Positions 609-28,324 of a stretch of DNA of 38,024 nucleotides are shown one piece after another. The position numbers were made by a program, and so were the translations under genes. The notes under the pieces were generated by a model. It saw nothing but the letters and a program-made list of their open reading frames with translations, ran no database searches and was not told the origin of the DNA. The DNA is taken from positions 1 through 38,024 of the forward strand of contig NZ_WJSQ01000006.1 of assembly GCF_009720245.1 (NCBI RefSeq), in the 5' to 3' direction. The stretch is from Sphingomonas segetis (GTDB lineage Bacteria; Pseudomonadota; Alphaproteobacteria; Sphingomonadales; Sphingomonadaceae). The number at the start of each line of letters is the position of its first letter. Within the stretch, counting starts at the first letter, position 1.

Positions 609-724
609 CGGATCACCTCCTTTCGCTGCGTTGAAGCCACGAACAAGATGTGTTTTTGCGGCGGCGAACACAAGACTTGTATTCGCGTGAATAATCGTCA
701 GACTTCTTCGCTTCGTGCCGCGAT

Positions 725-1186
725 TCAGACGCGGCAATCCTCGATCACCCGACCGACGTCCGCCCACGGCGGAACCACCAGCGCCGCAAGGCCGGAGGTG
801 CTGAACCCGATCCTTCCGCGGCTGAAAGCCATCGCGTCGAGCAGCGGATCGAACGGCGCCAGCTCGGCGACGACGCGTGCCGCCGTCGCATCGTAGCTCG
901 CCGGCAGGCTCTTCTTGAGCGAGCTCGTCCAGACCCAGATCGACGGCGCAGCCGCGCCCGGTTTGAGCAGCGCGACGCGGCGGTTCGAGCGCGTGCAGCG
1001 GATCGTCAGCTGCGGCTGCCCACTGGCGTTGGTGAAGGTCGCCTCGCTTCCATCGTTCGTCGCCGCATAAGTCCAGTTGCCGACGACCGGCGACGCATAT
1101 TCGAGATTCGACGCGAGCGGGGAGCCGGCAACGTTGGGAGTCGAATCAGTGGTCAGCGCAAGCGCCGCAGCAATCGGAAAAAACAT
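725..1186 (-). CDS. Hypothetical exported protein downstream of phaR
   Basis: A 153-residue protein with a short hydrophobic N-terminus (MFFPIAAALALT) that could be a signal peptide. The rest reads as a small beta-rich periplasmic domain (NWTYAATNDGSEATF, then QPQLTIRC, then RRVALLKPG) and a C-terminal part with FSRGRIGFSTSGLAALVVP. No catalytic motif is visible. It starts five bases after the phaR stop and is probably co-transcribed with phaR. I recognise the general look of a sphingomonad hypothetical protein, but no function can be assigned. Confidence 0.7.
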   Translation of the reverse strand: MFFPIAAALALTTDSTPNVAGSPLASNLEYASPVVGNWTYAATNDGSEATFTNASGQPQLTIRCTRSNRRVALLKPGAAAPSIWVWTSSLKKSLPASYDATAARVVAELAPFDPLLDAMAFSRGRIGFSTSGLAALVVPPWADVGRVIEDCRV

Positions 1187-1191
1187 GGCGA

Positions 1192-1710
1192 TCAGCGGCT
1201 CAGCTTGTCGACTTTGGCCTGCAGCGCGGCAAGCTCGGCCTTCAATTGCTCGACTTCGCTGCCGCTCGGCTTCGGCTCCGGTTTGGCCTTGGCGGCGAAG
1301 GCCTGAGCCGCGTCGCCGAACAGCGCCATGTTCCTCTTGGCCATGTCGGCGAACATGTTGGTGCCGAACGCGTCCTTGACCGCGCTCTGGTTGCGCTGGA
1401 ACGCGTCCATCGCGGCTTCGAGATATGACGGAACGAAATTTTGCATCGAATTCCCATAGAGGCCGATCAGCTGCTTGAGGAAGTTAATCGGCAGCATGGT
1501 TGCGCCGCGTGCTTCCTCATCCACGATGATCTGAGTGAGAACCTGCCGGGTGATGTCGTCGCCGGTCTTGGCGTCGAGCACTTCGAACTCGCGGCCTTCG
1601 CGTACCATATGGGCCAGGCGGTCGAGCGTGATGTAGGTCGAGCTCTCAGTGTCGTAGAGCCGCCGGTTGGCGTATTTCTTGATCGTCACCTTGCCGGTGG
1701 ACTTCGCCAT
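1192..1710 (-). CDS. phaR: Polyhydroxyalkanoate synthesis repressor PhaR
   Basis: A 172-residue regulator. The N-terminus (VTIKKYANRRLYDTESSTYI, residues about 6-25) is the hallmark of the PHB/PHA accumulation regulator DNA-binding domain. The PHB-accumulation regulatory region follows at about 30-120, and the protein ends in a Lys/Pro-rich linker and a heptad-like helix (VEQLKAELAALQAKVDKL) likely to oligomerise. PhaR family members repress phasin and synthase genes and are released by binding PHA granules. I chose the ATG at 1710 rather than a GTG one codon earlier; both follow GGGAG. It diverges from a PhaC-like gene with only about 24 bp between starts, so their promoters must overlap or lie inside the coding regions. 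Confidence 0.93.
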   Translation of the reverse strand: MAKSTGKVTIKKYANRRLYDTESSTYITLDRLAHMVREGREFEVLDAKTGDDITRQVLTQIIVDEEARGATMLPINFLKQLIGLYGNSMQNFVPSYLEAAMDAFQRNQSAVKDAFGTNMFADMAKRNMALFGDAAQAFAAKAKPEPKPSGSEVEQLKAELAALQAKVDKLSR

Positions 1711-1733
1711 CACTCACTCCCACACTCCTGGGG

Positions 1734-2771
1734 ATGCCCCTACTACCGGAGCATAGTGCGCCGCAACACGAACGCGTCACCCAAAGAGCGCCACGCCCGC
1801 TGCCTCTGTTCCTCGAGCTGGTGCGCGAGGTGTCGGAACGCGATCCCGAGCTGGCGCGCGCGGCTCTAGCGGGGCTGCGCGCATACGAGCAGGCGCCGAG
1901 GCGCGAGCGGCCCCGTCCCAAGACCGAGATTGCGCGGATCGGCGGCGCCGCGTTGCGCGACCATGGCGGCAGCGGGCCGCCGGCGCTCATCGTCCCGTCG
2001 CTGATCAACCCGCCGCGAATCCTCGACCTCGACGAGCAGGTGTCGCTGACCGCCGCGATCGCACGCATGGGCCGCCGAGCGCTGCTGCTGGATTGGGGCA
2101 GGGCCAGCGAGCGCGCCAACCTTTCGGTTGCGCGACACATCGAGGAGCTGTTGCTGCCTTTGCTGCGCAGCATCGGCGAGCCGGTCGCCCTGATCGGCTA
2201 TTGCCTCGGCGGCACGATGGCGATCGCCGCCGCCAACCGTGTCGACGTCGACCGGGTCGCGACAATCGCCGCGCCTTGGCGCTTCGCCAACTATCCCGAC
2301 AGCTCACGCCGCGCGCTCGCCGACATGTGGCGCCATTCCGAAGCCGCAGCGAGGCAGCTCGGCGCGCTTCCCATGGAAGTGCTGCAGGCGGCTTTCTGGT
2401 CCCTCGATCCGAATCGCACCGTCCGCAAGTTCGCCGAGTTCGGCCGCCTCGACCCCGCGAGCGCGGACGCTCGCCGCTTCGTCGAGCTCGAGGAATGGGC
2501 CAACGAGGGCGAGCCCCTGCCCTACCCCGCCGCGAGGGAGCTGATCGAGGATCTGTTCGGGAGGGACCTGCCGGGTTCGGGCGAATGGATCGCGAGCGAC
2601 AAGCTCGCCGTCCGCGCGCTTCATCTCACCGCCGACCACGACCGCATTGCCCCGGCCGCCACAGTCGCAGCAGGCGACCGAATCGCCATCCCCTCCGGTC
2701 ACGTCGGAATGATCGTCGGGTCCGCCCGCGAGCGGTTGCACGCTGCGCTCGCCGCATTTCTTTCCGGCTGA
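1734..2771 (+). CDS. Small PhaC-like alpha/beta hydrolase
   Basis: A 345-residue alpha/beta-hydrolase. The nucleophile elbow GYCLGG (Cys157) is the PHA-synthase type lipase box with cysteine in place of serine. Asp301 or Asp303 (in TADHDR) and His323 (in SGHVG) complete a plausible Cys-Asp-His triad. The length fits class III PhaC subunits (about 355 residues) rather than class I (about 590). No PhaE partner is visible, so this may be a synthase-like protein or a related PHA-metabolism hydrolase. Divergence from phaR supports a role in PHA storage. The start is uncertain: no good ribosome-binding site precedes 1734 and the gap to phaR is very short. The original tRNA-Arg junction, now the left element boundary, begins seven bases after its stop. 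Confidence 0.75.
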   Translation: MPLLPEHSAPQHERVTQRAPRPLPLFLELVREVSERDPELARAALAGLRAYEQAPRRERPRPKTEIARIGGAALRDHGGSGPPALIVPSLINPPRILDLDEQVSLTAAIARMGRRALLLDWGRASERANLSVARHIEELLLPLLRSIGEPVALIGYCLGGTMAIAAANRVDVDRVATIAAPWRFANYPDSSRRALADMWRHSEAAARQLGALPMEVLQAAFWSLDPNRTVRKFAEFGRLDPASADARRFVELEEWANEGEPLPYPAARELIEDLFGRDLPGSGEWIASDKLAVRALHLTADHDRIAPAATVAAGDRIAIPSGHVGMIVGSARERLHAALAAFLSG

Positions 2772-2777
2772 TGCTGC

Positions 2778-2793
2778 TGGCGCACCCGACAGG
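2778..2793. other. Left attachment site (tRNA-Arg 3' fragment)
   Basis: TGGCGCACCCGACAGG here is identical to 13748-13763, the 3' terminal part of tRNA-Arg read as its complement, including CCA. This fits integration into the tRNA 3' end: the element brought a replacement 3' end on the right and the original fragment was left here. Similarity stops sharply on both sides. Confidence 0.9.
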
Positions 2794-2876
2794 GGAAGCA
2801 CAGTCTAACTCATTCAACGACTTAGGTTGGCAAACCGACCCGAAGCACAAGCAAAAGCGCTCTCGGGACCGAAGCC

Positions 2877-2892
2877 GAATGGCTAACCATTC
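2877..2892. other. Palindrome with possible integrase arm site, left end
   Basis: GAATGGCTAACCATTC is an inverted repeat about 85 bp inside the left att core. Its 9-mer TGGCTAACC (2880-2888) occurs again at 13676-13684 and inverted at 13694-13702 near the other end, which suggests a recombinase or excisionase arm site. Confidence 0.4.
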
Positions 2893-2904
2893 CAGGCTGC
2901 TGCA

Positions 2905-3153
2905 GTGACCCGTTGGCCGATCGCCGCGCAGCTGATCACGCCCTGGCTATCGGCCAGCTGTGTAACCGGCGCGAACCTGTGGGAGCATGCCGGCGCCCTG
3001 TATGACAGCTGGCGACGATACGCCCGTGCGCGAGGCGCCGAACCTGGTTCGCCAGCTGAGTTCGCAGATCAAATGGAGCAGCGCGGCTTTGCGGTCGACC
3101 GCGTGCCGCCGGTTTCGCGCGGCCGCATTCGCTGGGGCCTGAGGCTCCGATGA
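2905..3153 (+). CDS. Small protein resembling P4-type primase C-terminal domain
   Basis: An 82-residue protein starting at GTG; a TAA in the same frame at 2884 rules out a longer version. The core (LYDSWRRYARARGAEPGS, then F, then QRGF, ending GRIRWGLRL) has the pattern of the winged-helix DNA-binding module that ends phage P4-type primase/helicases. In P4 alpha protein that C-terminal part binds origin iterons. No primase or helicase domain is present, so it is either a free-standing DNA-binding protein or a relic. It shares the Y-x2-W, P-x-S, F and terminal G-x4-L pattern with the next gene, and the iteron array begins just downstream. The family assignment is by eye. Confidence 0.5.
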   Translation: MTRWPIAAQLITPWLSASCVTGANLWEHAGALYDSWRRYARARGAEPGSPAEFADQMEQRGFAVDRVPPVSRGRIRWGLRLR

Positions 3154-3226
3154 TCAGCGGCTGTCGCCCCCGCACCCCCGCCTGCAGACAGAAACGAAGG
3201 CCAATGAGGGTCAATCCTTCCGCTTT

Positions 3227-3508
3227 GGAAGGGTGCCGGAAGGGTCTGCGGAAGGGTGCCGGGGGCGGAAAACTGCGGTTTCGGAAGGGTCGGAAGGGTT
3301 GCCGAGAAAGTCCGCGCATATGTGCGCAGGTGCATGGGTGCGCATGCGCATAAGCAATTTACCCTTCCAACCCTTCCACCCTTCCAAATTGAAGATTGAG
3401 AGAACTTAGAAATGATTGAAGGTCAAAGGTTTAGCGCGAAGAAAGGTCGGGCAGCAGACGGCTGCTCCACCCTTCCGCCATCCTTCCGGGGCGAAGTGCA
3501 ACCCTTCC
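3227..3508. repeat. Iteron-like array of ten GGAAGGGT motifs, possible origin
   Basis: GGAAGGGT occurs five times on the + strand (from 3227, 3238, 3250, 3283, 3292). Its complement ACCCTTCC then occurs five times (from 3361, 3370, 3378, 3469, 3501). Between the two blocks lie two palindromes, GCGCATATGTGCGC (3314-3327) and TGCGCATGCGCA (3339-3350), and an AT-richer stretch (3351-3360). This arrangement resembles a replication origin or a partition/packaging site. The region 3154-3411 holds no gene. Confidence 0.6.
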
Positions 3509-3903
3509 ACGCGGCGCATCGCCGACTGCGTGGCCCAGTGCCTTCGCACTTCGAAGCGTTCTATCGTTCGCACCTTCGCTTCCTGCTTGGCGCGCGGCTC
3601 AGATCATCAGACGTCAGCAGGTTTTACGCGGCGTGGGCTGCAGCTGCCGGCGCCCCATCGCTTAGCTTTCGCGAAGTGAAGCGCGCGATGGGAAACATCG
3701 GCCATCGTTCGAAGAGTTCGAACGGCGTCCAGTATTGCGACGTCGCTTTGGCGGCCGACTGCGACGACCTGGCCGACAACTTCCCGGCCATCCCGCTTCC
3801 TTCCGAAGCGCACGCGGCTGCGATCGCAGATCGCCTGGACGCGATGATCACTGAACTGAGCAACATTCGCGCTGAAGTCGTCAGCACGCCTCACTCACAT
3901 TGA
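3412..3903 (+). CDS. Small protein with primase-C-terminus-like fold
   Basis: 163 residues from ATG at 3412; a GTG at 3538 would give 121 residues. The first 42 codons cover the last two iteron copies and are low in recognisable structure, so the later start is plausible. The core (HFEAFYRSHLRF, then RFYAAWAAAAG, SLSFREVKRAMG, NGVQYCDVAL) matches the same winged-helix pattern as the gene at 2905. The C-terminal 40 residues look helical. It is probably DNA-binding and may bind the adjacent iterons. No helicase motif is visible. The gene at 3923 follows after 19 bases, so the two may be co-transcribed. Confidence 0.55.
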   Translation: MIEGQRFSAKKGRAADGCSTLPPSFRGEVQPFHAAHRRLRGPVPSHFEAFYRSHLRFLLGARLRSSDVSRFYAAWAAAAGAPSLSFREVKRAMGNIGHRSKSSNGVQYCDVALAADCDDLADNFPAIPLPSEAHAAAIADRLDAMITELSNIRAEVVSTPHSH

Positions 3904-3922
3904 CCACCGGGAGGGCTAAACC

Positions 3923-4156
3923 ATGATCACTGAGCAAGACTTCCAAGTTCCTGCAGGCGTTGCCGAGCGCCTGAAGATGACTGCCATCTGCCACACTCAC
4001 CATACGGGCTTGGCGGCGATCGCGCTCATTCGCGCTGCGGCCGACATTCTGTGCAACGACCTGGGCGCCGAACAGACCTGCGAAATCATCCGGCAGGTGA
4101 CGACTGAAGCACTCGCGCTGCACGGGCCGGTCAATGCGCCAGTGGGGCATGCATGA
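3923..4156 (+). CDS. Small hypothetical protein of the element
   Basis: A 77-residue, probably helical protein (MITEQDFQVPAGVAERLK at the N-terminus, ending GPVNAPVGHA), preceded by a good ribosome-binding site (GGGAGGG, 8 bases before the ATG). It contains a Cys-His-Thr-His-His cluster near residue 23-27 and a second Cys at about 44, but no clear metal-binding spacing. I do not recognise the family. Its place between the origin-like region and the AlpA-like gene suggests an early replication or regulation module. Confidence 0.6.
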   Translation: MITEQDFQVPAGVAERLKMTAICHTHHTGLAAIALIRAAADILCNDLGAEQTCEIIRQVTTEALALHGPVNAPVGHA

Positions 4157-4240
4157 CGGGTCGCGGGTCCTTTTCGGGCGCCACCCCTATTGCGGTGCGG
4201 CGAGGCGCGGAATCGCAGCGTTCAGACCTGTTCCATCATT

Positions 4241-4268
4241 TTGAACTTATTGAACTAATTGGGTTCAA
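4241..4268. promoter_or_regulatory. TTGAAC repeat cluster, possible operator
   Basis: TTGAAC occurs at 4241-4246 and 4250-4255, and its complement GTTCAA at 4263-4268, just before the AlpA-like gene. The last two form an inverted repeat with a 7-bp spacer. A regulator-binding site is plausible. The surrounding gap 4157-4280 shows nothing else. Confidence 0.35.
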
Positions 4269-4280
4269 GCGGGGGTTGGT

Positions 4281-4469
4281 GTGCAACAGTCAGTGAACGA
4301 CGCCGATCGAATGCGCTCGGAAAAGGAAGCGGCTCGCCTTTGGGGCGTTTCCCCGCGCACCTTGCGCGCCTGGCGCAAGGCTGGTCTGATCGAATGGACG
4401 CGCACGCCTACCGGGCGCGTGCGCTACACACTCGATCAAATAGTCGCTGGTCCCTTGAAGCCGCGTTAG
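4281..4469 (+). CDS. AlpA/MerR-like small DNA-binding regulator
   Basis: 62 residues from GTG; an ATG at 4311 would give 52. The core (EKEAARLWGVSPRTLRAWRK, then GLIEWTRTPTGRVRYTLDQI) is a MerR/AlpA-type helix-turn-helix followed by a wing. Proteins like this act as excisionases or transcription activators of integrase and replication genes in P4-like and PICI-type satellites. A cluster of TTGAAC half-sites lies directly upstream. It is the best candidate for the element's excisionase, although it lies far from the integrase. Confidence 0.7.
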   Translation: MQQSVNDADRMRSEKEAARLWGVSPRTLRAWRKAGLIEWTRTPTGRVRYTLDQIVAGPLKPR

Positions 4470-4517
4470 GCTCCGTCCCAAATCAGAATTTGCGATCGCC
4501 GGAGGCGCACGGTCCCA

Positions 4518-5873
4518 ATGACAAAATCCGAGCTGCTGGGCCAAATCTGTGCAGAGTTCGAACGGGCTCAAACGAGCGATCCTGTGCCGTGGACACCGAC
4601 GCCCGGAAGAATCAGTTTTCCTCCCCAGTTGCCCGTCGGGAACGGGATGCACCTCGACGCGACTAACGAACTGCTAGCTGCCGTGAAGTCGTATGGGGAT
4701 TTGGTTCATCAAGACTCTGTGCTTCTTCGGTCGTCGTTTTCGACGAAGGAATTCTCGAGCATGGTCCGCCTAGCCTTCGGGCGCACCCTGGAGTCGCTCG
4801 GCACCCAAACGCCCGATCCCGATCAATTGGGCCGGGCCGTCGATCAGGCCTTGGAGACAGAGATAGGGGCTAGGACGAAGGACGTTGTTCTTCTCCTTGG
4901 CTGTTGGCTCTTTGAAGATGATGACGATGCCTACCCCGTGAACGTCGGGCCGGTCACCTTTCATACGCGCATCGGTTGGCTCGACGAACAAGCCACTGCG
5001 GGAGAACTGTCCTCAATCACGGCGCGACGGCTTCGCAGACAGTGGTCGGGAGAGAAGGTCGCGAGGCGAAAACGCGGTTTCGACCAGGATAAAGAATCCG
5101 GCATTGCAGATGCCGTCGATCGCTGTCCTGTCGTCTGCGCGGTGCGTACCCACGGCCTTTCGATCGATCTAACCGAGCAAAAGGGCCTGTTGGCCGCCCG
5201 ACTGGCAATGACAGCCCTGGCACTGCCCTGGGCTGATCCACAAGTGGCCCTCGAACACATGAATTTGATTTACGATGGGGGACCGCGAAATCGACACTAC
5301 GCGATCGCGTATGAAGGCGGCTTCGGAAGCGGGTCGTCCTGGGTGAATTTGCCCAGGGGTCAATCTTCTATTCAGTCGTTGGCGGAAGTACTCACGGTTT
5401 ACCGACCAACTTTCGAAGTGGTCGGTGAAGCCCTCGAAGCTTATGTGAATCCACACGCCCCCGTGCGGCGACCAAAGGTTTCAAACGCATTGTTCTTGAG
5501 CTTGTGGTGGTTCCACCAGGGCTGTCGCGAGGCTTCGGACCAAATGGCGGTCACAGCCTTCGCAGCGAGCTTAGACGCACTAGCAGCGGGCGGCCACGCG
5601 GGCGGCATCAAGAGACTGATCAAGGCTCGTTTGGGCCTAGAAGGGAGTGACGCTCTCATGACAGACGGCCGTACTACCAGCGCCGTCATCAACGGCGTCT
5701 ATGACAGCGGACGCAGCCGGTTCATCCACGGAAGCAGCAATGATTATGCAGAGGACTGGGGCGGTCGGCGCGGAACTGCGCGGGCAGTTGCGCGACTGCT
5801 GCTGCTTCAGGTGACCCACTGGCTGCAGACTCATCCCGAAGTCGTGGACATGAAAGAGCTACAAGTGGCGTGA
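4518..5873 (+). CDS. Large protein with C-terminal HEPN motif, putative defence
   Basis: 451 residues. The first 290 or so show no motif I can name. The C-terminal part (about 310-440) is helical and contains YDSGRSRFIHGSSND, with Arg399-x4-His404 in the position and context typical of HEPN ribonuclease domains (compare the R-S-x-x-x-H-G pattern of abortive-infection HEPN proteins), followed by the long helix VARLLLLQVTHWLQ. It sits between the regulator and capsid genes, a place where satellites often carry anti-phage cargo. A GGAGG lies about 13 bases before the ATG. The HEPN call is motif-based; a non-nucleolytic role is possible. Confidence 0.6.
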   Translation: MTKSELLGQICAEFERAQTSDPVPWTPTPGRISFPPQLPVGNGMHLDATNELLAAVKSYGDLVHQDSVLLRSSFSTKEFSSMVRLAFGRTLESLGTQTPDPDQLGRAVDQALETEIGARTKDVVLLLGCWLFEDDDDAYPVNVGPVTFHTRIGWLDEQATAGELSSITARRLRRQWSGEKVARRKRGFDQDKESGIADAVDRCPVVCAVRTHGLSIDLTEQKGLLAARLAMTALALPWADPQVALEHMNLIYDGGPRNRHYAIAYEGGFGSGSSWVNLPRGQSSIQSLAEVLTVYRPTFEVVGEALEAYVNPHAPVRRPKVSNALFLSLWWFHQGCREASDQMAVTAFAASLDALAAGGHAGGIKRLIKARLGLEGSDALMTDGRTTSAVINGVYDSGRSRFIHGSSNDYAEDWGGRRGTARAVARLLLLQVTHWLQTHPEVVDMKELQVA

Positions 5874-5951
5874 GATGGAAGCGTGCTTAGGAGAATGACG
5901 CCTTCTGCCGCTTTCTGACGCTTAACGGTAGTCGACCGCTTCCACAGCTTC

Positions 5952-7934
5952 ATGTCCACTGCAGGCATGAATTTCATCCGCTCAGCAGCTGCAGCAGCTT
6001 CGTCCGAGCTAGAACGGCGCCAGCCAATGGCCGGCGCAAGCGGCAAGCGCTTCGCTGGCTTCTCACCGAACAGCTACGACGCCGACAACCGTAGTGTCGA
6101 AGCTATCCTGTCAGTCGGCGCCGCCGTTCAGCGTCTCTTCTATGTCGAAGAACTGGCGATCACTGGCGAGGCGATCGACCTAACGCGCGCTGCTGCTGGC
6201 CTGGTGCCGCTCCTGGACGCACACAACCGGTTCGAAACGGACGCCGTACTGGGCACAGTGTCAAACGTCCGCGTTGCTGACGGCCGGCTGCTCGCCACCC
6301 TCACGTTTGGCGAAACCGACCGGGCGCAGCAGGTCGAGGGCATGGTCGCCCGTGGCGAGATTCGCGGAATTTCGATCGGCTATAACATCACCGCCTGGGA
6401 AAAGCGGTCAGGCGCTAGTCCCGACGACTTGGAAACCTGGCTCGCGACAAAATGGGAACTGCTCGAAGTGAGCCTGGTCCCGGTCCCCGCGGACGTCCTC
6501 ACCGGCATTCGGTCTGCCGACTGCCAATTCCCCGAATTTTCAGAAGAGGAACAAGACATGTTCATTCGCAACGCGCCTAGCGGCGCAGCGGCCGCCGCGC
6601 CGGCACAGCCGCAGGCGGCCGCTTCCCGCTTCAATTCGACCCAGGCGATCGACTTTATCCGCATGGCTCGTGACTTCGGCGTCGAAACGGCTGCGGAGGA
6701 ACTGGTTCGGCGCAATGAAAGCGGTGAAATCGGCACCGAAGCGGCGCGCGAGGCTCTGTTGCGCGCCGCGGCCGAGCGCCAGCGTGCTGACGTTTCCGGC
6801 CTCCACGGCTCGGGCATAGTCACCGAGCGGGGCGCACAGACATTCGACAATCCTGCCTTCCACGCTCGCGCCGTCGAAGATGCGCTTTATTCCCGCCTGA
6901 GCGGCAAGGCGCCGAACGATGCCGCGCGCGAATTCCGCGGTCTTTCGATGGTCGCTCTGGCATCGGAAATGCTTGTGCGATCGGGGACACGCGACGTTCA
7001 CCGCATGACTCCAGACCAGGTGCTGACCGCGGCAGCCTGGAATTCCGGTACGCGATCGCTCGGGGGCCTTCATACGACGTCGGATTTCCCCGAACTTCTG
7101 ACCGCCGCCGGCAACCGCTACCTGCTGGACCAGTTCGGCGCAGCCTCAACGGTCATCAAGACCGTCAGTCGGGAGCGCAGCGCAAACGATTTCCGGGATA
7201 TCAGCGGCCTGCAGCTTTCGGCCTTCGGCACGTTGCCCGAAGTCGTCGAAGCCGGCGAAATCAAACACGGCACGTTTCAGTCGCGAGCAGAAACCTACAA
7301 GGTGAAGACCTTCGCGAAGATCTTCGGGCTATCGCGCCAGGCGATCATCAACGACGACCTGGACGCGTTCGGCCGATCGGCAACGATCATGGCCCGCGCG
7401 GCTGCCGAAACCGAAGCCCAGCTGTTCGCCGAACTGATCAACGACAACCCGGTCATGGCCGATTCGGTGGCACTCTTCCACGCTACGCACGGAAACCTAG
7501 CGGGTGCGGGCGCGGGGCCGGACGTCACGACGCTCGACGCGGGGCGGCTCGCGATGCGCAGCCAGAAAGACCTGGACGGCACGACCCCGCTCGCGGCGGC
7601 CCCCCGCTACATCCTCGCCAGCCCGAAGCGCGAAACGGCCATCGAACAGCTGCTAGTCGCAACGGTGGCACCCACCACCGCGGACGACACGAACCCGTTC
7701 AACGGCAAGCTGGCCCCGTTGATCGACCCGCGGCTTGATGCGGACCCCTGGTACTTGTTCGCCGACCCGGCCATGGTTCCGGTCCTCGAGCACGCATATC
7801 TGCGAGGCAAGAGCGGACCGACCGTCGAAATGAAGGACGGTTGGAACGTTCTGGGCCAAGAATTCCGAGTCTACATGGACTTTGGCGCAGGCGTCGTCGA
7901 CCATCGCGGCGCCTTCAAGAATCCGGGCGCGTAA
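5952..7934 (+). CDS. Prohead protease/major capsid protein fusion
   Basis: 660 residues. Residues about 35-195 are an HK97-type prohead protease (U35 family): His91 in LLDAHNRFE and Ser141 in RGISIGYN are the expected catalytic residues, and the domain ends LLEVSLVPVPA. A linker with an Ala/Pro/Gln-rich stretch leads into a capsid domain (about 290-660) with FGLSRQAIINDDL, ASPKRETAIEQLL and the C-terminal YMDFGAGVVDHRG, as in HK97/Mu gpT-like capsid proteins. An in-frame ATG at 6558 (Met203) is preceded by AGAGGA, so a capsid-only product may be made internally. It is the only virion gene seen in the element. The ribosome-binding site before 5952 is poor. Confidence 0.88.
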   Translation: MSTAGMNFIRSAAAAASSELERRQPMAGASGKRFAGFSPNSYDADNRSVEAILSVGAAVQRLFYVEELAITGEAIDLTRAAAGLVPLLDAHNRFETDAVLGTVSNVRVADGRLLATLTFGETDRAQQVEGMVARGEIRGISIGYNITAWEKRSGASPDDLETWLATKWELLEVSLVPVPADVLTGIRSADCQFPEFSEEEQDMFIRNAPSGAAAAAPAQPQAAASRFNSTQAIDFIRMARDFGVETAAEELVRRNESGEIGTEAAREALLRAAAERQRADVSGLHGSGIVTERGAQTFDNPAFHARAVEDALYSRLSGKAPNDAAREFRGLSMVALASEMLVRSGTRDVHRMTPDQVLTAAAWNSGTRSLGGLHTTSDFPELLTAAGNRYLLDQFGAASTVIKTVSRERSANDFRDISGLQLSAFGTLPEVVEAGEIKHGTFQSRAETYKVKTFAKIFGLSRQAIINDDLDAFGRSATIMARAAAETEAQLFAELINDNPVMADSVALFHATHGNLAGAGAGPDVTTLDAGRLAMRSQKDLDGTTPLAAAPRYILASPKRETAIEQLLVATVAPTTADDTNPFNGKLAPLIDPRLDADPWYLFADPAMVPVLEHAYLRGKSGPTVEMKDGWNVLGQEFRVYMDFGAGVVDHRGAFKNPGA

Positions 7935-7957
7935 CCCCTTCAAGGGGCGGGTTGATC

Positions 7958-8019
7958 GGCGGGGAGGGCCGCCCCTGGCGCTGCGTCCGGCAGCACAGCG
8001 CCCTCTTCCCCTCCCCGCC
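7958..8019 (+). other. Nested stem-loop downstream of capsid gene
   Basis: GGCGGGGA (7958-7965) pairs with TCCCCGCC (8012-8019). Inside it, GGCGCTG (7977-7983) pairs with CAGCGCC (7996-8002). A separate perfect hairpin, CCCCTT-C-AAGGGG, starts right after the capsid stop (7935-7947). Together they fill the 140-bp gap 7935-8074. It may be a terminator, an RNA element or a DNA site; no T-run follows. Confidence 0.45.
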
Positions 8020-8074
8020 ACTTTGCCCAGTGGGGTATCTCGCACATGGACGCAGTCACACTCACCTAGGTTCG

Positions 8075-8935
8075 ATGAACCTACTTCCACCAGAATCTGT
8101 CCTTAGATGCATGCCGAGCGCGCTTCCGTTGAAGGTTCGGCGCCTCTTTGGCGCAACCGCTTACGCCATCGACGGCGCAGAATTTTCGTTCGATCGACTA
8201 ACCAGAACTGCGGCGGCATATGCAGCGCCGGCCGGAGGCGAGAAGCCATCTGTTGCAGCGTGGTCGCCCGAAATGCGGCTGAGCGTCGTTACTGACGCCT
8301 GGGCATTCATCGATCACGTGAATCGACTGCGTAAGCTGTTGCAGCGTTTCGATTACGATGGCGCGACGCCCGCGCGCGTCCAGCAGTTTCTGGACGCGAC
8401 GGAGCCGGCGCGTCAAATTCGCAATCGACTGCAGCACCTGGACGAAGACATCTACACCGGCGCATTCAGCGAAGAAGGTCACCCCGTCCTGGGCACGGTC
8501 ACTTGGATTGATGCTCGCGATCACCCGCTGCAGAGGCGATATGCTGTCGCGTCCGGGCCGAGCATAGACGCCGGCAAGATGATCGAATTCGAAGTGAATG
8601 AGCTTCCAGCCGGCGCCATTGGCCACTTCCAGCTGATGGCATCAGATAAACGCGTCGATCTTGATGGCCTGCTGGACGAATTGAGAGATTTCGTGCCCGC
8701 TTTTGAGCAGATGACCGAGCGGTCGATTGGGGAGAGCATTAGGACCGCAGCCACCGAACGTTCGATCGAGCCAGAAGCTCTGTGTGGCAGCGGCATTACT
8801 GATATGACGATGCTTGCGACCTTTGTGCCGACTGGACCGGGCGCCTTCACGCTCCAGGATGACGGCATGCATGGCGTGGTTGAGGTCCCGCCTCACGCGT
8901 ACCGACTTCCTGAGAAAGAGAGCGTCCCGACTTAG
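8075..8935 (+). CDS. Second HEPN-motif protein of the element
   Basis: 286 residues from the ATG at 8075; the frame stays open upstream, but that part is Arg/Pro-rich and overlaps the capsid gene. WAFIDHVNRLRKLLQRF (about 81-97) followed by TEPARQIRNRLQHLDED places Arg116-Asn117-x3-His121, the classical HEPN RN-x3-H motif, at the end of a helix. The C-terminal half (VNELPAGAIGHFQL, then LDGLLDELRDFVPAFEQM) has no recognised domain. It ends four bases into the convergent DUF2188 gene. A nuclease, toxin or phage-exclusion role is possible. Confidence 0.55.
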   Translation: MNLLPPESVLRCMPSALPLKVRRLFGATAYAIDGAEFSFDRLTRTAAAYAAPAGGEKPSVAAWSPEMRLSVVTDAWAFIDHVNRLRKLLQRFDYDGATPARVQQFLDATEPARQIRNRLQHLDEDIYTGAFSEEGHPVLGTVTWIDARDHPLQRRYAVASGPSIDAGKMIEFEVNELPAGAIGHFQLMASDKRVDLDGLLDELRDFVPAFEQMTERSIGESIRTAATERSIEPEALCGSGITDMTMLATFVPTGPGAFTLQDDGMHGVVEVPPHAYRLPEKESVPT

Positions 8936-9183
8936 CCGGGGGATGACTTCGGGTCCTTCGAACCAGGAAACGTCCGCTCCTCCTGGATTTTGCCGTCTTC
9001 CTTATGGATGCGGACGGACCCGCCGCCTGGTCCCACAGCCTTTCCAAGTACGCCGCCCGCAGTAGCTTCGGACTTCGTGTCGAAGCGGGCTTTCGCACGA
9101 TCGGCACCATGCTCCTTTAGCACCCACTGGTCGCGCTTCTCGTCTTTCGTCAGGTCAAACCGCGGCAGCTTGCCTTTGGCCAT
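8932..9183 (-). CDS. DUF2188 protein
   Basis: 83 residues, MAKGKLPRFDLTKDEKRDQW at the start, then an ARFDTKSEATAGG segment and GGGSVRIHKEDGKIQEERTF at the C-terminal side. This is the compact DUF2188 layout (W-x-L-K, then GG-x-VRIH-x-x-x-G-x-I-Q-EERT). AAGGAGAG precedes the ATG by eight bases. DUF2188 proteins are small, soluble, of unknown function and common in mobile and accessory DNA. Its 3' end overlaps the HEPN-motif gene tail to tail, and it diverges from the zinc-ribbon gene at 9268. Confidence 0.8.
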   Translation of the reverse strand: MAKGKLPRFDLTKDEKRDQWVLKEHGADRAKARFDTKSEATAGGVLGKAVGPGGGSVRIHKEDGKIQEERTFPGSKDPKSSPG

Positions 9184-9267
9184 TTCGACACTCTCCTTAA
9201 TGCTGAAATGCGATACGCAGCAGCTTGCCGTATGTTCCCTGATTGTTCTACGTAAGCGCTCGCGCCA

Positions 9268-9483
9268 ATGTCGACTAAGCATGTTCGAACAACAGGTGAT
9301 TTGATACGCTTCGGATGCGCCCTGAAGATCGAATGCACGCACTGCCAGTCCGCGCGAACGCTCAGTGCCAATGCCGCGGTGAAGGGCTTGGGGTTAATAG
9401 ACCTTCGAGGCGCCGGCCGCCGATTCCGGTGCATTCGCTGCGGAATGAAGGCGGCGAAGCTGGTCGTCCTCCCGCCAGTCTAG
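9268..9483 (+). CDS. Small zinc-ribbon protein
   Basis: 71 residues with two CxxC pairs (CTHC at about 23-26 and CIRC at about 55-58), the spacing of a one-zinc ribbon. The middle (ARTLSANAAVKGLGLIDLRG) and the tail AAKLVVLPPV are otherwise unremarkable. Nucleic-acid or protein binding is likely for such a fold, but no partner can be named. It diverges from DUF2188 across an 84-bp gap that shows no clear promoter motif. Confidence 0.55.
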   Translation: MSTKHVRTTGDLIRFGCALKIECTHCQSARTLSANAAVKGLGLIDLRGAGRRFRCIRCGMKAAKLVVLPPV

Positions 9484-9595
9484 ATGCGGCCGTTGAAATG
9501 TAGGATTTTGCCGTCCAATCAGACGTCGCGTGTCGAATCGCGAAGGGAGACGGGTGCCGCTCGGTGCACCCGTCGACCGGCACGAAGGCGCTGAA

Positions 9596-9712
9596 GTGAG
9601 GCTAGCTTCGTTGTTTCTTGTTGGACTGCTGGCGGTCCTATGCGCCGCGCCTGGCGTGGCCGCGATCATCCTGTGGGCCGAACTACAGCTGCTCGGCGGT
9701 CATCGGGTCTGA
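9596..9712 (+). CDS. Single-pass membrane peptide
   Basis: A 38-residue peptide from GTG at 9596 (a GTG at 9530 would give 60). RLASLFLVGLLAVLCAAP and GVAAIILWAELQLL form one long or two short hydrophobic segments. GAAGG lies about seven bases upstream of the GTG. Its stop lies five bases before the HExxH gene, so the two are probably co-translated. A membrane-anchor or toxin-like role is possible, but the peptide is too short for a family call. Confidence 0.4.
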   Translation: MRLASLFLVGLLAVLCAAPGVAAIILWAELQLLGGHRV

Positions 9713-9716
9713 CCGA

Positions 9717-10739
9717 ATGTCTGACGACCAAGAGCGACCTGAGCCAACGCTGCCGCCGAACTCAATAGTTCAGTTGCGCGACTGGCATAACGAAAGCGAA
9801 GACGAAGCGCGCGAATTTGGCCAGTTCCTCATGGCGACCACCCACGAATGGTCGCGTTACCTCGATCTGTCACGACTGTCGAAAGTGATACTCGCTTACG
9901 ATTATCACGCCGCGCTCGCTTTAGCGCGAGGTGACGACCAGGTCGCTGACGTCGCCACCGTAAATGAATTCGGCCAAAGCGCCGCAATGTCGATAGTCGT
10001 CAGGGAGGGCGACGAGTTGAAGAGCGTAGTCGTCGTCTCGACGCCTCTCATAAAGGCGATGTTTGATGAAGAGGACTCGACCCTTCGCCGCTCGTCATTG
10101 CAAAGTTATGTGCACGAACTGGTCCACGTCGACGACCACGCCTTCCTAGATCGCACGTTCCCAGGCGGCGCGGCCGCAGCGACGCCGGCAGATGATCTAC
10201 ATGGGGCACTGTTGGCCATAGTCATGCCCGCGCGATCTGAATACGAAGCCACTCGCCGGACGGCGCTCATTGAGCCGTCGACGGGCCTGCAATTCCTCGA
10301 CATGCTCAGTGCCGTGCTTGCAGACCTTTGGACCGAGGTCCGCCGGGAACGACGGAAATACAACGAACGGGAGATTTCGCTAGAGGAGTTCTGGCCCTGG
10401 CTGCAGGAGCGCTGCCGCTTCGTATTCCAGTCGCTCGGTTACGCCCTCGGGCACGCTGATGGCGTGCTTAACGAAGAAGAGGCGTCGGGCGACCTGAAAG
10501 CAGTCTATCTTAGGCGTCTCGAGGATATAGCTTCCACGGATTTCGGATGGCTCATTGATGCCACCCGCGCCGCCGTTATGCCGATTTATCGACAAGAGGC
10601 ATGGACGGGGCTGGCCATATTCGACGACCTGGTCGAAGTCGGTCGAAGGTTGCTCGGCGAGTTCGGTGTTCAGCTTCTGCCGCAGGCGAACGGGTTTTGG
10701 GTTGATGTACCTTGGACCTGGGACCCAGCCTTGAACTAG
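9717..10739 (+). CDS. HExxH metallopeptidase-like protein
   Basis: 340 residues from the ATG at 9717; the earlier frame overlaps the membrane peptide and is unlikely. VHELVHVDDH places His133-Glu134-x2-His137, a zincin HExxH motif, on a helix. Glu175 or Glu177 in RSEYEATRR is a plausible third zinc ligand. The N-terminus is acidic and Pro-rich. The C-terminal part (FVFQSLGYALGHADGVL, then IFDDLVEVGRRLL) is helical. No signal peptide is seen, so the protein is likely cytosolic. It might cleave a phage or host regulator in the manner of ImmA-type proteases, but no known defence family is recognised. Confidence 0.55.
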   Translation: MSDDQERPEPTLPPNSIVQLRDWHNESEDEAREFGQFLMATTHEWSRYLDLSRLSKVILAYDYHAALALARGDDQVADVATVNEFGQSAAMSIVVREGDELKSVVVVSTPLIKAMFDEEDSTLRRSSLQSYVHELVHVDDHAFLDRTFPGGAAAATPADDLHGALLAIVMPARSEYEATRRTALIEPSTGLQFLDMLSAVLADLWTEVRRERRKYNEREISLEEFWPWLQERCRFVFQSLGYALGHADGVLNEEEASGDLKAVYLRRLEDIASTDFGWLIDATRAAVMPIYRQEAWTGLAIFDDLVEVGRRLLGEFGVQLLPQANGFWVDVPWTWDPALN

Positions 10740-10754
10740 GCGGCGCCCGGCCGC

Positions 10755-11360
10755 TCACGCGGTCGGTGCAATCCACTTCTTCATCTGCTCGCGCTGCCAC
10801 GCCTTTAGTGCTTCGGCTGAGGGGATTTCCCCACTCCGTATGGCAAGAAACGGCTTGCGGAGCGGATGGTGGTCTACCCAGTCTCTGGACTTCGTCTGAC
10901 CAGCATTGAAAAACCGCTGAAAATCTGCCGGGCAGAACTTTCGAATGAAAAATTCGACGTCGGAAAAGTGCTCCATCGCAAGGTTGCACTCATAAGTCAG
11001 GAGTTCGATGCCCTCTTCGGAGCGAAGCCCATCACTGCGATCTTCCAAAAAGTGGTGAGCAAAATGATTGCGCAGATCGGTCGCTACTTTGAGAGCGGCC
11101 ACAAACTGGGGGTCGGCGCCGAAGCCTGTGAAAACGGCTTTGAATTTGCTCGCTGTCCCGCCGAACGTAAGCTTTGAGATTCGGGCGGCTACCCTCTCTC
11201 TCATCGGTTCATCGTCCGCATATCGGACCCGCGTCGCATCCCAAAGTGCAGTGCGCATGGCAAGTTCAAGACCCGCCGCGGCGCCCATCGCGTGGCCGTA
11301 CGCATCCCAAAGCGACTTTTGATTCGGAATATCGCTTTCGTCCTCAGCGCCGCCTTCCAT
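10755..11360 (-). CDS. Third HEPN-motif protein of the element
   Basis: 201 residues from the ATG at 11360, with AGGAG about ten bases upstream; longer frames upstream are Arg/Ser-rich and unlikely. A helical N-terminal region (AYGHAMGAAAGLELAMRT) is followed by KVATDLRNHFAHHFLED, giving Arg97-Asn98-x3-His102, a clean HEPN RN-x3-H motif. The C-terminal half (CNLAMEHFSDVEFFIRKFCP) is helical. It diverges from an XRE regulator across 97 bp. This could be a toxin/antitoxin-like or nuclease/regulator pair, or simply neighbouring cargo. Confidence 0.6.
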   Translation of the reverse strand: MEGGAEDESDIPNQKSLWDAYGHAMGAAAGLELAMRTALWDATRVRYADDEPMRERVAARISKLTFGGTASKFKAVFTGFGADPQFVAALKVATDLRNHFAHHFLEDRSDGLRSEEGIELLTYECNLAMEHFSDVEFFIRKFCPADFQRFFNAGQTKSRDWVDHHPLRKPFLAIRSGEIPSAEALKAWQREQMKKWIAPTA

Positions 11361-11457
11361 TTGACGCGGACTCCTGCTTTGTGCCCTACTCGCAGCGGGA
11401 CGACCCAGCGCGCGAACGCTGAGCCGCCCCTGACCACAGCACCCGTTGGAGGATGCA

Positions 11458-11742
11458 ATGGCTTCAACGACTGTAGCGACAGCTGCAAAATCCGCACCAG
11501 GTTTGAACGTCATCGCGCTGAGACCGGACAATCGCATTCGCGAAATGCGGCAACTGGCCGGTTTGACGCTCGAACAGCTGTCCGATCTTACTGGCATTCG
11601 GCCGCAGCTGCTCCATCGCCTCGAAAATGAGCGCGACTGCCCGAAGCTGAAATTCGATCGCGTGCGCTTAATCGCAAGGGCGTTGGGGTGCAGGTTCGTC
11701 GACCTAGTTGCCCACGAGGACCTTTGCCCTGTCGCTAGATAA
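11458..11742 (+). CDS. XRE-family helix-turn-helix regulator
   Basis: 94 residues from the ATG at 11458, with GGAGG five bases before it. Residues about 25-82 are a Cro/CI-type helix-turn-helix (IREMRQLAGLTLEQLSDLTG, then QLLHRLENERDCPKLKFDRV). The N-terminal 20 residues are Ala/Thr-rich and probably flexible. It could be the element's repressor or the antitoxin-type partner of the divergent HEPN-motif gene. It lacks the C-terminal cleavage domain of a CI repressor. Confidence 0.8.
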   Translation: MASTTVATAAKSAPGLNVIALRPDNRIREMRQLAGLTLEQLSDLTGIRPQLLHRLENERDCPKLKFDRVRLIARALGCRFVDLVAHEDLCPVAR

Positions 11743-11784
11743 AAGGCGTATCGGGCCTTCATGGGCGGAGGAAACTAAACCCTC

Positions 11785-11828
11785 TTGCATCATGTGAAGC
11801 GTAATGTCATACGCTTCACATGATGCAA
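11785..11828. promoter_or_regulatory. Perfect 19-bp-arm palindrome over a start codon
   Basis: TTGCATCATGTGAAGCGTA (11785-11803) is perfectly complementary to 11810-11828, with a 6-bp centre (ATGTCA). The right arm contains both candidate ATGs of the following gene (11820 and 11823). No Shine-Dalgarno sequence is visible upstream of them. It may be an operator, an autoregulatory site or a hairpin hiding the start codon. Confidence 0.75.
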
Positions 11829-12449
11829 ACGACTCTAACCTTTGTGAGCAAGCCGGAATTTGCTCTTGGCGAACTGCCACACCTGATCGGAGCTGATCCG
11901 AGAAGAATTACCGTCTGGATGCAACGGCAGGGCGAAGACCTGCACGTTCCGATCGGTCTGCGAATAAGCGAGCGCAAGCGTCGCTTCACGGGTTTGGAGG
12001 TGCTGCACTTCGGGGCCCTCTTGAGGTTGCTCCCTCCAACCATGGATGGAGTGAAGCAGTCGGGAACTGGCCTTAGCATCGCGGCGCTGCTGGCCGAACG
12101 TGCTGTCGATCAGCTTGCGCACAGTGAAGAGTTGGGGGCGCCCATTTCCGTTGAGCGTCTTCACAGGATTCACGAAGTGGGACTCTTCGTGCGCTCAGCC
12201 ATCGGGCGCGAACTTCAGCCCGGTCAGCTGCGCACCGTCGATGTAATTCCAGAACTGGAGTCGATTCCCCGCACCTACGCGGCTGGCTTGAAACTACTCG
12301 AACGCGGCCAAGCGCCGGCGCCCTACCGATTTGTTCCCATAGGAGCGCTCCTCATTTCGATCATCCAAGCTTTGACTGAACGGCAGCGCGATTCGAGAGA
12401 GGCGGAAGTGTTCCGTCACTTCATTCAAAGCCTACGCGACGGTCACTGA
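11820..12449 (+). CDS. Predicted regulator with MerR-like N-terminus
   Basis: 209 residues. The N-terminus (FALGELPHLIGADPRRITVW, then MQRQGEDL, then RRFTGLEVLHFGALLRLL) has the helix-turn-helix plus wing plus helix order of MerR-type domains, but the match is weak. The rest is helical (GLSIAALLAERAVDQL, then FVPIGALLISIIQALTERQ). The start codon lies inside the palindrome at 11785-11828, and no ribosome-binding site precedes it, so translation may be leaderless. Binding to that palindrome would make it autoregulatory. The 55-residue gene begins one base after its stop, so it probably shares an mRNA with that gene and the integrase. Confidence 0.55.
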   Translation: MMQTTLTFVSKPEFALGELPHLIGADPRRITVWMQRQGEDLHVPIGLRISERKRRFTGLEVLHFGALLRLLPPTMDGVKQSGTGLSIAALLAERAVDQLAHSEELGAPISVERLHRIHEVGLFVRSAIGRELQPGQLRTVDVIPELESIPRTYAAGLKLLERGQAPAPYRFVPIGALLISIIQALTERQRDSREAEVFRHFIQSLRDGH

Positions 12450-12450
12450 A

Positions 12451-12618
12451 ATGCCGCGGCGCCCCTCGCTCTTTCGACAGGTCGACATCGAACGGGCCAT
12501 TAAGGCCGCGAAGGCTACCGGCGCGACCGAGGTCCGCATTGAACTGGAACCGTGCGGCAAACTGGTGCTGGTAACCGGTCCGGCGGCCCGCGCGCCATCG
12601 GGCAACAGCTTCGACTAA
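12451..12618 (+). CDS. 55-residue protein upstream of integrase
   Basis: The peptide begins MPRRPSLFRQVDIERAIKAA and continues with VRIELEPCGKLVLVTGPAA before a flexible tail. It follows the predicted regulator by a single base and precedes the integrase by a few bases. Small proteins of this shape (basic start, one helix, a beta-hairpin with an E-x-x-G-K-x-V motif) are common directly upstream of tyrosine integrases in alphaproteobacterial islands. They may assist recombination, but that role is inferred from position. Confidence 0.6.
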   Translation: MPRRPSLFRQVDIERAIKAAKATGATEVRIELEPCGKLVLVTGPAARAPSGNSFD

Positions 12619-12630
12619 GGAGGAATGATC

Positions 12631-13737: not shown

Positions 13738-13747
13738 ATGGCAAAGG

Positions 13748-13824
<77 letters not shown>

Positions 13825-13984
13825 TTAGGCGAGCGGACTTAGCGACGCCGCCGCCGCGCGACAAGCGGGAGCTTGGCATTGACCTAAGTGATTCATGGCG
13901 CTCGCTAAATGCGCCAAATTGTGGATAACTTGCGGTTAGCGACTCGTGCGGGGCGAGCGCGCTTCAGGTGTCGGGGCGGGGGCC

Positions 13985-28160: not shown

Positions 28161-28324
28161 GGCGGCGGGAGTAGCAAAATCAGGCGCTGCAGTCGCCGCC
28201 GGAAAGCGGCGATTAGAGCGCCGATTCGGAGCGGCGGTAACCGAGCCTTAAACCCTTCCGTTGAAGAGGGTGCTCCGGGGGAGAAGGGCGTGCTGGAACT
28301 CGAGCGAATGAGCAGGTCGCGTTC

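Follow-up and report, generated by a model that had tools for sequence, protein, structure and literature searches.

A candidate capsid-encoding satellite of Sphingomonas segetis with orphan primase-type winged helices beside a phage-like iteron array

What must a satellite bring with it in order to be copied? The question is raised in compact form by a locus of Sphingomonas segetis at which two small open reading frames (ORFs), ORF1 and ORF2, flank an array of short repeats (iterons) of the sequence GGAAGGGT. The locus lies in a 38,024-nt stretch of DNA (the window; positions 1 to 38,024 of contig NZ_WJSQ01000006.1, assembly GCF_009720245.1), inside an island of 10,970 bp, measured from repeat start to repeat start, that is set at a tRNA-Arg between 16-bp attachment (att) repeats (Table 1). 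A first reading of the letters, the original prediction, had proposed a stripped-down replication module that borrows a helicase from a helper or from the host. With slightly better than even confidence, we consider the island to be a capsid-encoding satellite resembling the phage-inducible chromosomal islands (PICIs), with an origin that would imitate those of its helper phages and with orphan origin-binding domains in place of the replication enzyme. The module then looks like a minimal answer to the question.

The two flanking frames are present as originally described, and the by-eye match of their products to the C-terminal winged helix of primases was upheld by sequence profiles, by predicted fold and by the occurrence of the same array beside viral primase genes. 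A hidden Markov model (HMM) was built from 18 D5-type primase-helicases or contig-end fragments, all from array-search loci and with the window left out. Run against 332 ORFs from the window and a locus of a sister genome (L013), it matched ORF2 (E 1.1e-12) and ORF1 (E 2.3e-5), both with its C-terminal domain; the third and last match at E 10, also to this domain, was the ORF2 relative of the sister genome (4e-4). ORF1 additionally matches positions 753-825 of the 855 positions of the primase family phrog_1156 (E 3.2e-7), and ORF2 has no match in Pfam, PHROGs, NCBIfam or PADLOC. Neither protein matches a Pfam family at E 1, so a RepA_N domain was found in neither.

AlphaFold, proposed at the outset as a check and here used with locus-derived alignments, returned winged helices for both proteins. 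The ORF1 model has the winged-helix order of elements (mean predicted local distance difference test, pLDDT, 90.2), and the ORF2 model (83.7) reaches 93-98 in blocks within residues 41-110, between a low-confidence N-terminus and two C-terminal helices. The best Protein Data Bank (PDB) matches of both models are the DNA-binding domains of RFX5 and RFX1 (Z 9.1-9.8). ORF1 matches RFX5 at Z 9.8, the tail of the African swine fever virus (ASFV) primase C962R (8iqi) at Z 8.3 and the P4 origin-binding domain (OBD; 1ka8) at Z 7.4; the corresponding values for ORF2 are 9.5, 8.4 and 7.8. The C-terminal domain of P4 gp-alpha binds the origin. The ASFV C962R tail has been described as resembling the P4 and Rfx1 domains (PMC10516667). 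A Z below 8 is no proof, yet the sequence profile agrees with the fold on a primase-type winged helix, and each of the two proteins is accordingly predicted to be the C-terminal winged helix of a D5-type primase-helicase standing on its own. By its sequence ORF1 belongs to a different domain subfamily from ORF2 and is the weaker half of the case. This type of winged helix also ends proteins with Bro-N or Rha regulator domains (L197 5161-5928, L220 6828-7580, L222 6159-7043), the L197 protein having a sub-threshold match to the RFX DNA-binding family. Primases and antirepressor-like proteins thus appear to have this domain in common.

The rest of the enzyme is missing from the island, as the original prediction had it. 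No primase or helicase family matched the island ORFs scanned (13 with Pfam, 10 with NCBIfam, eight with PHROGs), except for the match of ORF1 to primase C-termini, and a fused primase-helicase alpha, which marks P4-like satellites, was found neither among the scanned island ORFs nor in the ORF lists.

The array itself comprises ten exact iterons at 3227-3508, five forward copies facing five inverted ones, again as predicted and far above chance. The whole window holds 11 exact copies, the eleventh at 28252, compared with a mean of 0.68 and a maximum of 3 in 100 dinucleotide shuffles, and two one-mismatch copies occur within 3150-3560 (at 3214 and 3480). Between the halves lies a 61-bp spacer, in which TGCGCATGCGCA forms a palindrome at 3339-3350 and purines and pyrimidines alternate over a tract of 16 nt, a length reached in 0 of 500 mononucleotide shuffles. 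The original prediction had placed palindromes and an AT-richer patch between the halves; the palindrome is confirmed there, but the patch (3386-3450) sits within the inverted half. The mirrored sets recall the PICI-style plan of two iteron sets about an AT-rich region, but here the DNA between the sets has a GC content of 56% and the AT-rich patch lies elsewhere. If ORF2 starts at 3412, the last two inverted iterons fall in its first 33 codons. In the reading that we narrowly prefer, the array would be the replication origin of the island.

The same arrangement recurs in viruses. A pattern of two forward GGAAGGGT copies, a gap of 51-81 bp (61 bp in the window) and an inverted copy was found in 15 viral contigs, 13 of which carry a D5-type primase gene with the array on its 3' side, 12-124 bp separating the gene end from the nearest iteron. 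Several of these 13 genes are truncated where the available stretch stops, L026 and L028 seem to be near-copies of each other, and the other two contigs (L155 and L163) have no primase in the stretch examined. With a gap of 20-50 bp the pattern occurs in three viral contigs, one with a primase. Three tandem copies occur in 27 viral contigs and a primase in just 7 of them within the stretch examined, so tandem copies alone are a poor marker; a genome scan for such tandems yielded at least 106 stretches from many phyla, which were put through the primase profile alone, and primases were found among them in L050 and L144. The enzyme of L157 combines Prim-Pol and D5_N domains with a Pox_D5 match at the C-terminal domain just below the cut-off, which the enzyme of genome G657 passes.

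Spacers in 16 loci measure 61-87 bp. Long alternating purine-pyrimidine tracts are found in many of the GC-rich loci, where they span 16 nt in the window, 19 in L157 and 18 in both L162 and L224 (reached in 0 or 1 of 500 shuffles each); tracts in L016, L161 and L225 are shorter (11 nt, reached in 13-20 of 500), and none was seen in four AT-rich contigs (GC 0.13-0.24) or in L012. One of four named phages with related primases has the array: Microcystis phage Mae-JY28 (PP438420) carries two exact and several one-mismatch GGAAGGGT copies, together with a similar spacer, 3' of its primase. The other three lack it, with a different array in RcapNL (Rhodobacter), other repeats in Pthi1 and none clear in RR1-A. 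The best named matches of the capsid fusion of the island (OM681334) and of the L157 primase (PP438420, PP395637) are all labelled as Microcystis phages, a host label that may deserve a check, since the other relatives found belong to the bacterial family of the window.

Domain sequence and array sequence go together more generally. The domain alignment was run against 397 genomes of the family and matched 43 of them, and in the neighbourhoods fetched the domains closest to the GGAAGGGT set are mostly followed by GGAAGG-type arrays. More distant domains have other arrays or none: GCAAGGGTT in L230, GGGAGGA in L206, L209, L212 and L234, and, as strong arrays directly 3' of the primases, AAGCGCC in L215 (ten copies after 3929) and ACCCGCC in L214 (ten after 5487) and L223 (six after 13645). 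In many family loci, L198, L201, L204, L232 and L233 among them, the 500 nt that follow the gene contain no clear array. Covariation was tested on 27 full-length, non-redundant primases selected for the similarity of their domains, without regard to arrays; the identity of the domains was compared with the similarity of repeated 7-mers in the flanking 500 nt. The correlation was 0.52 on the 3' side of the gene (0 of 5000 permutations as high) and 0.15 in the 5' control (233 of 5000); kinship of the loci adds to the correlation, and the control shows roughly how much. On the predicted binding of the iterons by the domain this covariation bears indirectly. This test is preferred to a first one (r 0.57), which was set aside because loci chosen for their array were mixed in. 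Six duplicates or fragments (including L226 and L228, repeated viral loci with GGAAGGGT arrays), ORFs shorter than 400 aa and domains at least 90% identical to one kept were dropped before both tests.

Several related islands were compared. The island of G453, at a tRNA-Glu and 10,823 bp long between 16-bp repeats, has a complete Prim-Pol/D5 primase of 857 aa where ORF1 would be and a GCAAGGGTT array with a spacer of the window's kind (by eye); it holds homologues of ORF3 and of the AlpA-type protein (Table 1), of the capsid fusion (46-51% identity) and of the integrase (43%), and none of ORF2. The G526 island (tRNA-Glu, 10,948 bp) combines an ORF2-type protein with a GGGAGG array and also has a capsid gene of HK97 type and an integrase 44% identical to that of the window. 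In the G358 island the iteron is GGAAAGGT, the ORF2-type protein shows 40% identity, the integrase is distant (22%) and a capsid gene is present. No primase was detected in either island. In G364, of the same genus as the window, a remnant beside tRNA-Arg(CCG) retains three GGAAGGGT copies and an ORF2-type protein of 108 aa. In G108 the domain is part of a 178-aa protein; this island also has protease and capsid genes, an integrase, a region rich in GGAAGG and a frame that by eye resembles AlpA. No att repeats were found for the G358 and G108 islands.

The ORF2-type proteins of G364, G358 and G526 are 32-40% identical to ORF2 and are encoded in open frames beside the arrays; the C-terminal extension of ORF2 aligns in the G358 and G526 relatives and is missing from that of G364. 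An ORF2-type protein thus occurs where the primase is missing, in three islands and a remnant, as against one island with a primase. Absence of the array from otherwise syntenic elements had been named as grounds for abandoning the original prediction. An array was found in all of them, its iteron unchanged in G364 and altered in G358, G526 and G453, and sister islands with and without a full primase support the stripped-down replication module that had been envisaged. Two further candidates were not counted as support, G204 having GGAAGGGT copies with no phage gene recognised nearby by eye and G009 lying at a contig end. The lengths of 10.8-11.0 kb in three islands of differing content (window, G453 and G526) suggest a packaging limit.

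As single queries neither ORF1 nor ORF2 found any in viral contigs, ORF2 found none among phage and plasmid records at E 0.1, and a four-member ORF2 alignment found none in viral contigs or in six other genomes of the genus of G526. The integrase has 25 matches; 20 new neighbourhoods were fetched (those of G513 and G640 were not) and none had a winged-helix domain of this type, which means that the integrase family extends beyond the module.

The helper probably belongs to a class of phages visible in four genomes (G556, G580, G632 and G657), in which a GGAAGG-type array follows a primase and a protease-capsid fusion lies about 6-7 kb away; this fusion is of the same family as that of the window, with 33-53% identity over the aligned regions; in G657 a large terminase gene stands between primase/array and fusion. 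These loci pair an array-bearing primase with the capsid family, and the satellite's origin and capsid therefore both point to this phage class. The window's own genome (G000; assembly 97% complete) has no second domain of this type at E 1e-4, and its closely spaced GGAAGGGT pairs are confined to the array, so a helper would have to come from outside or from the unassembled part.

In the mechanism proposed here, the satellite would have lost, or never had, a primase-helicase, and would keep the origin-binding winged helix of that enzyme as free-standing proteins, ORF2 above all. Its origin would use the plan and the iteron of a class of phages that carry such an array immediately past the end of their primase-helicase gene. 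When a phage of this class enters, ORF2, perhaps with ORF1, may prepare or hold the iterons, and the primase-helicase of the helper, reading the same iterons through its own C-terminal domain, could then be loaded on the satellite origin; the satellite would supply its own capsid subunit and protease. We infer in this scheme the role of the array as origin, the DNA binding, the dependence on a helper and the loading role of ORF2. More tentatively, with confidence a little short of even, the island may represent a class of capsid-encoding satellites without a replication enzyme, in which a helper-mimic origin and separate origin-reading domains load the helper primase-helicase in trans, and in which iteron and winged helix form a code for usable helpers.

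Several observations weigh against this reading. The Z scores of 7.4-7.8 to the P4 domain are in a range that the tool itself calls common, and fold likeness alone would be weak. ORF1 is nearer to other primase subfamilies than to those beside GGAAGGGT arrays; the two proteins can both be regarded as winged-helix homologues, as first proposed, but the place of ORF1 in the module is less certain than had been implied. The primases of L232 and L233 have close domains without GGAAGGGT or any clear array. Among 240 genomes of the class, searched with the four-member ORF2 alignment, an ORF2-type protein occurs in the window's own (G000) and in none of the 239 others, and among 71 genomes of the genus G364 alone convincingly shares ORF2, with four weaker matches at E 0.003-0.01. 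In G364 itself the module is decayed, with an ORF1-like frame apparently frameshifted near its end (by eye) and a broken AlpA gene. An array like the GGAAAGGT of G358 was not found in viral contigs with the one pattern tried, the exchange of primase for ORF2 is drawn from a sample of one island that has a primase, three that lack it and the G364 remnant, and the proposed helper is a candidate phage class.

The main rival, which we consider unlikely, holds that ORF1 and ORF2 are regulators or weapons that occupy the iterons, or pair with the winged helix of the helper primase, and so restrain the replication of the integrated element, determine its copy number or interfere with the helper; it implies that the helper enzyme alone is enough to fire the satellite origin. 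Such a role has a parallel in the truncated Rep of plasmid pIGRK, a negative regulator (PMC6854812), the two iterons inside ORF2 would make autoregulation possible, and the same domain type forms the C-terminus of Bro-N or Rha regulator-domain proteins. A brake on an element's own initiator would be expected where that initiator is present, and the opposite is seen: ORF2-type proteins accompany the lack of a primase, and the single related island with a primase of its own has none. The sample is small, and this pattern favours a positive role without being decisive.

It is improbable that ORF2 is instead a complete initiator whose C-terminal helices recruit a host or helper helicase, much as RepA of the Vibrio phage-inducible chromosomal island-like elements (PLEs) is believed to recruit machinery, with no need of the helper primase-helicase. 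The two helices past the winged helix of ORF2 and the aligned extensions of the G358 and G526 relatives would suit this role, but the G364 relative lacks the extension, and a self-standing initiator would not need an iteron and origin plan that match those beside phage primases. Slightly less probable still is the view that the module is debris, left when the body of a primase gene was deleted, with ORF1 and ORF2 as functionless leftovers. ORF1 does stand at the place expected of a primase C-terminus and the G364 copy is decaying, but in G364, G358 and G526 ORF2-type frames at 32-40% identity remain open next to arrays whose sequence differs among the three, one deletion does not yield two proteins of different domain subfamilies, and the att repeats are exact while the integrase and capsid frames are open.

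The features of the island are collected in Table 1. As in PICIs, an integrase and an AlpA-type gene lie between the att repeats, and as in capsid-forming PICIs the island encodes its own major capsid protein and protease (5952-7934); of the primase-replication gene (pri-rep) followed by an origin that PICIs show, the C-terminal domain alone is present. No Pfam match to terminase or portal families was found among 13 island ORFs scanned, the helix-turn-helix of the AlpA-like ORF gives a weak-to-moderate match to a small-terminase family of PHROGs, and no defence-gene profile matched among eight island proteins scanned. Island proteins of 451, 286 and 340 aa (4518-5873, 8075-8935 and 9717-10739) have no convincing family in Pfam, NCBIfam or PADLOC, the first of them matching phrog_38039, of unknown function.

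Table 1. Features of the Sphingomonas segetis island, in window coordinates
Feature	Position	Strand	Remarks
attL (TGGCGCACCCGACAGG)	2778-2793		exact 16-bp repeat of 13748-13763
ORF1, 82 aa	2905-3153	+	GTG start; predicted free-standing primase-type winged helix
Five forward GGAAGGGT iterons	3227-3299	+	starts 3227, 3238, 3250, 3283, 3292
Spacer, 61 bp	3300-3360		palindrome 3339-3350 and 16-nt alternating purine-pyrimidine tract
Three inverted GGAAGGGT iterons	3361-3385	-	starts 3361, 3370, 3378
AT-richer patch	3386-3450		GC 0.38 vs 0.61 for the island
ORF2, 163 aa	3412-3903	+	low-confidence N-terminus, predicted primase-type winged helix (about 44-112), two C-terminal helices
Two more inverted GGAAGGGT iterons, inside the ORF2 start	3469-3508	-	starts 3469, 3501
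ORF3, small protein, 77 aa	3923-4156	+	45% identity over 47 aa with the same-place protein of the G453 island
AlpA/MerR-like regulator or excisionase	4281-4469	+	PF00376 E 8.9e-10; 67% identity over 42 aa with the G453 island
Prohead protease-major capsid fusion, 660 aa	5952-7934	+	Phage_capsid_4 and Peptidase_S78; phrog_4523 E 1e-172
Cro/C1-type regulator	11446-11742		
Tyrosine integrase	12625-13737	+	at the tRNA end of the island; PF00589 E 4.3e-17
attR (TGGCGCACCCGACAGG)	13748-13763		3' end of tRNA-Arg(CCG) 13748-13824 (-)

Some further observations concern the wider island family. Two islands of 10.1-10.2 kb with related integrases and capsid genes, L261 (G637, 630-10887) and L272 (G607, 3720-13864), have different apparent replication genes, an AAA_25 protein in L272 and, in L261, a small protein without assignment close to the far att site. 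Members of one island family thus seem to swap their replication modules. A capsid gene seems to be paired with a long tape-measure-like ORF, unusual for a satellite this small, in L216 (2401-4395; sub-threshold PhageMin_Tail), L218 (2-4066; no Pfam match) and L272 (9043-11316; by eye). Also in L218 (about 7523-7545), the TTG start codon of the ORF2-type gene comes immediately after the final GGGAGG iteron, which could also serve the gene as a ribosome-binding site. Relative to the neighbouring hydrolase gene, tRNA-Arg(CCG) has opposite orientations in G364 (L013 8376-8452) and in the window (13748-13824), and the island remainders run the same way despite this flip.

No satellite with an orphan primase domain was found in the open literature on satellites, iterons, origin-binding domains and capsid-forming PICIs, as covered by titles and the starts of abstracts and with subscription papers mostly outside; likewise, the accessible parts of the literature on PICIs, PLEs and the phage-inducible chromosomal minimalist islands (PICMIs) describe no satellite that has a phage-primase origin-binding domain alone together with phage-type iterons. 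Should the proposed reading hold, helper range would be predictable from sequence by matching satellite iterons to phages. For phages with D5-type primases the loci also offer a putative map of the origin, in which mirrored iterons flank a spacer of ~60-90 bp immediately 3' of the primase gene. They further supply naturally paired proteins and iterons that could be used to derive the recognition rules of this winged helix.

Among known systems, P4 gp-alpha (1ka8) and ASFV C962R (8iqi) share the winged helix, which in those proteins forms the C-terminus of a primase-helicase; here it stands alone, twice, without a primase or helicase domain. PICIs have an AlpA-type gene, and the island resembles PICIs, including those of Gram-negative hosts, in this gene, in being an integrase island and in the two iteron sets of its putative origin. 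It differs in lacking pri-rep, in carrying a capsid-protease fusion and in a spacer that is not AT-rich but holds an alternating purine-pyrimidine tract. Capsid-forming PICIs encode their own capsid protein and protease, as the island does, and are defined as including their own terminase and portal, whereas the 11 kb here hold no terminase or portal family match and no primase-rep. The PICI origin has been described as two iteron sets about a central region, in an island with an integrase (PMC6092414), and PICMIs as carrying an integrase, AlpA and a primase (PMC10803314). In the accessible parts of this literature, primase and helicase are supplied by the satellite itself in PICIs and P4, and PLEs bring an unrelated initiator. 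Compared with the phage Mae-JY28, in which GGAAGGGT iterons and a spacer of the same kind follow a D5-type primase, the island has no complete primase and is not a complete phage; in Mae-JY28 the inverted copies all have one mismatch and a separate prohead protease gene is annotated. The Vibrio PLE is a helper-dependent satellite with iterons, and its initiator, RepA, has no predicted primase or helicase activity (PMC7145576), and the DNA-binding domain of its RepA_N protein covaries with the origin (PMC8263062). The island would resemble it in these respects, with the difference that a phage-primase-type domain and iterons of the phage-primase kind take the place of the RepA_N family.
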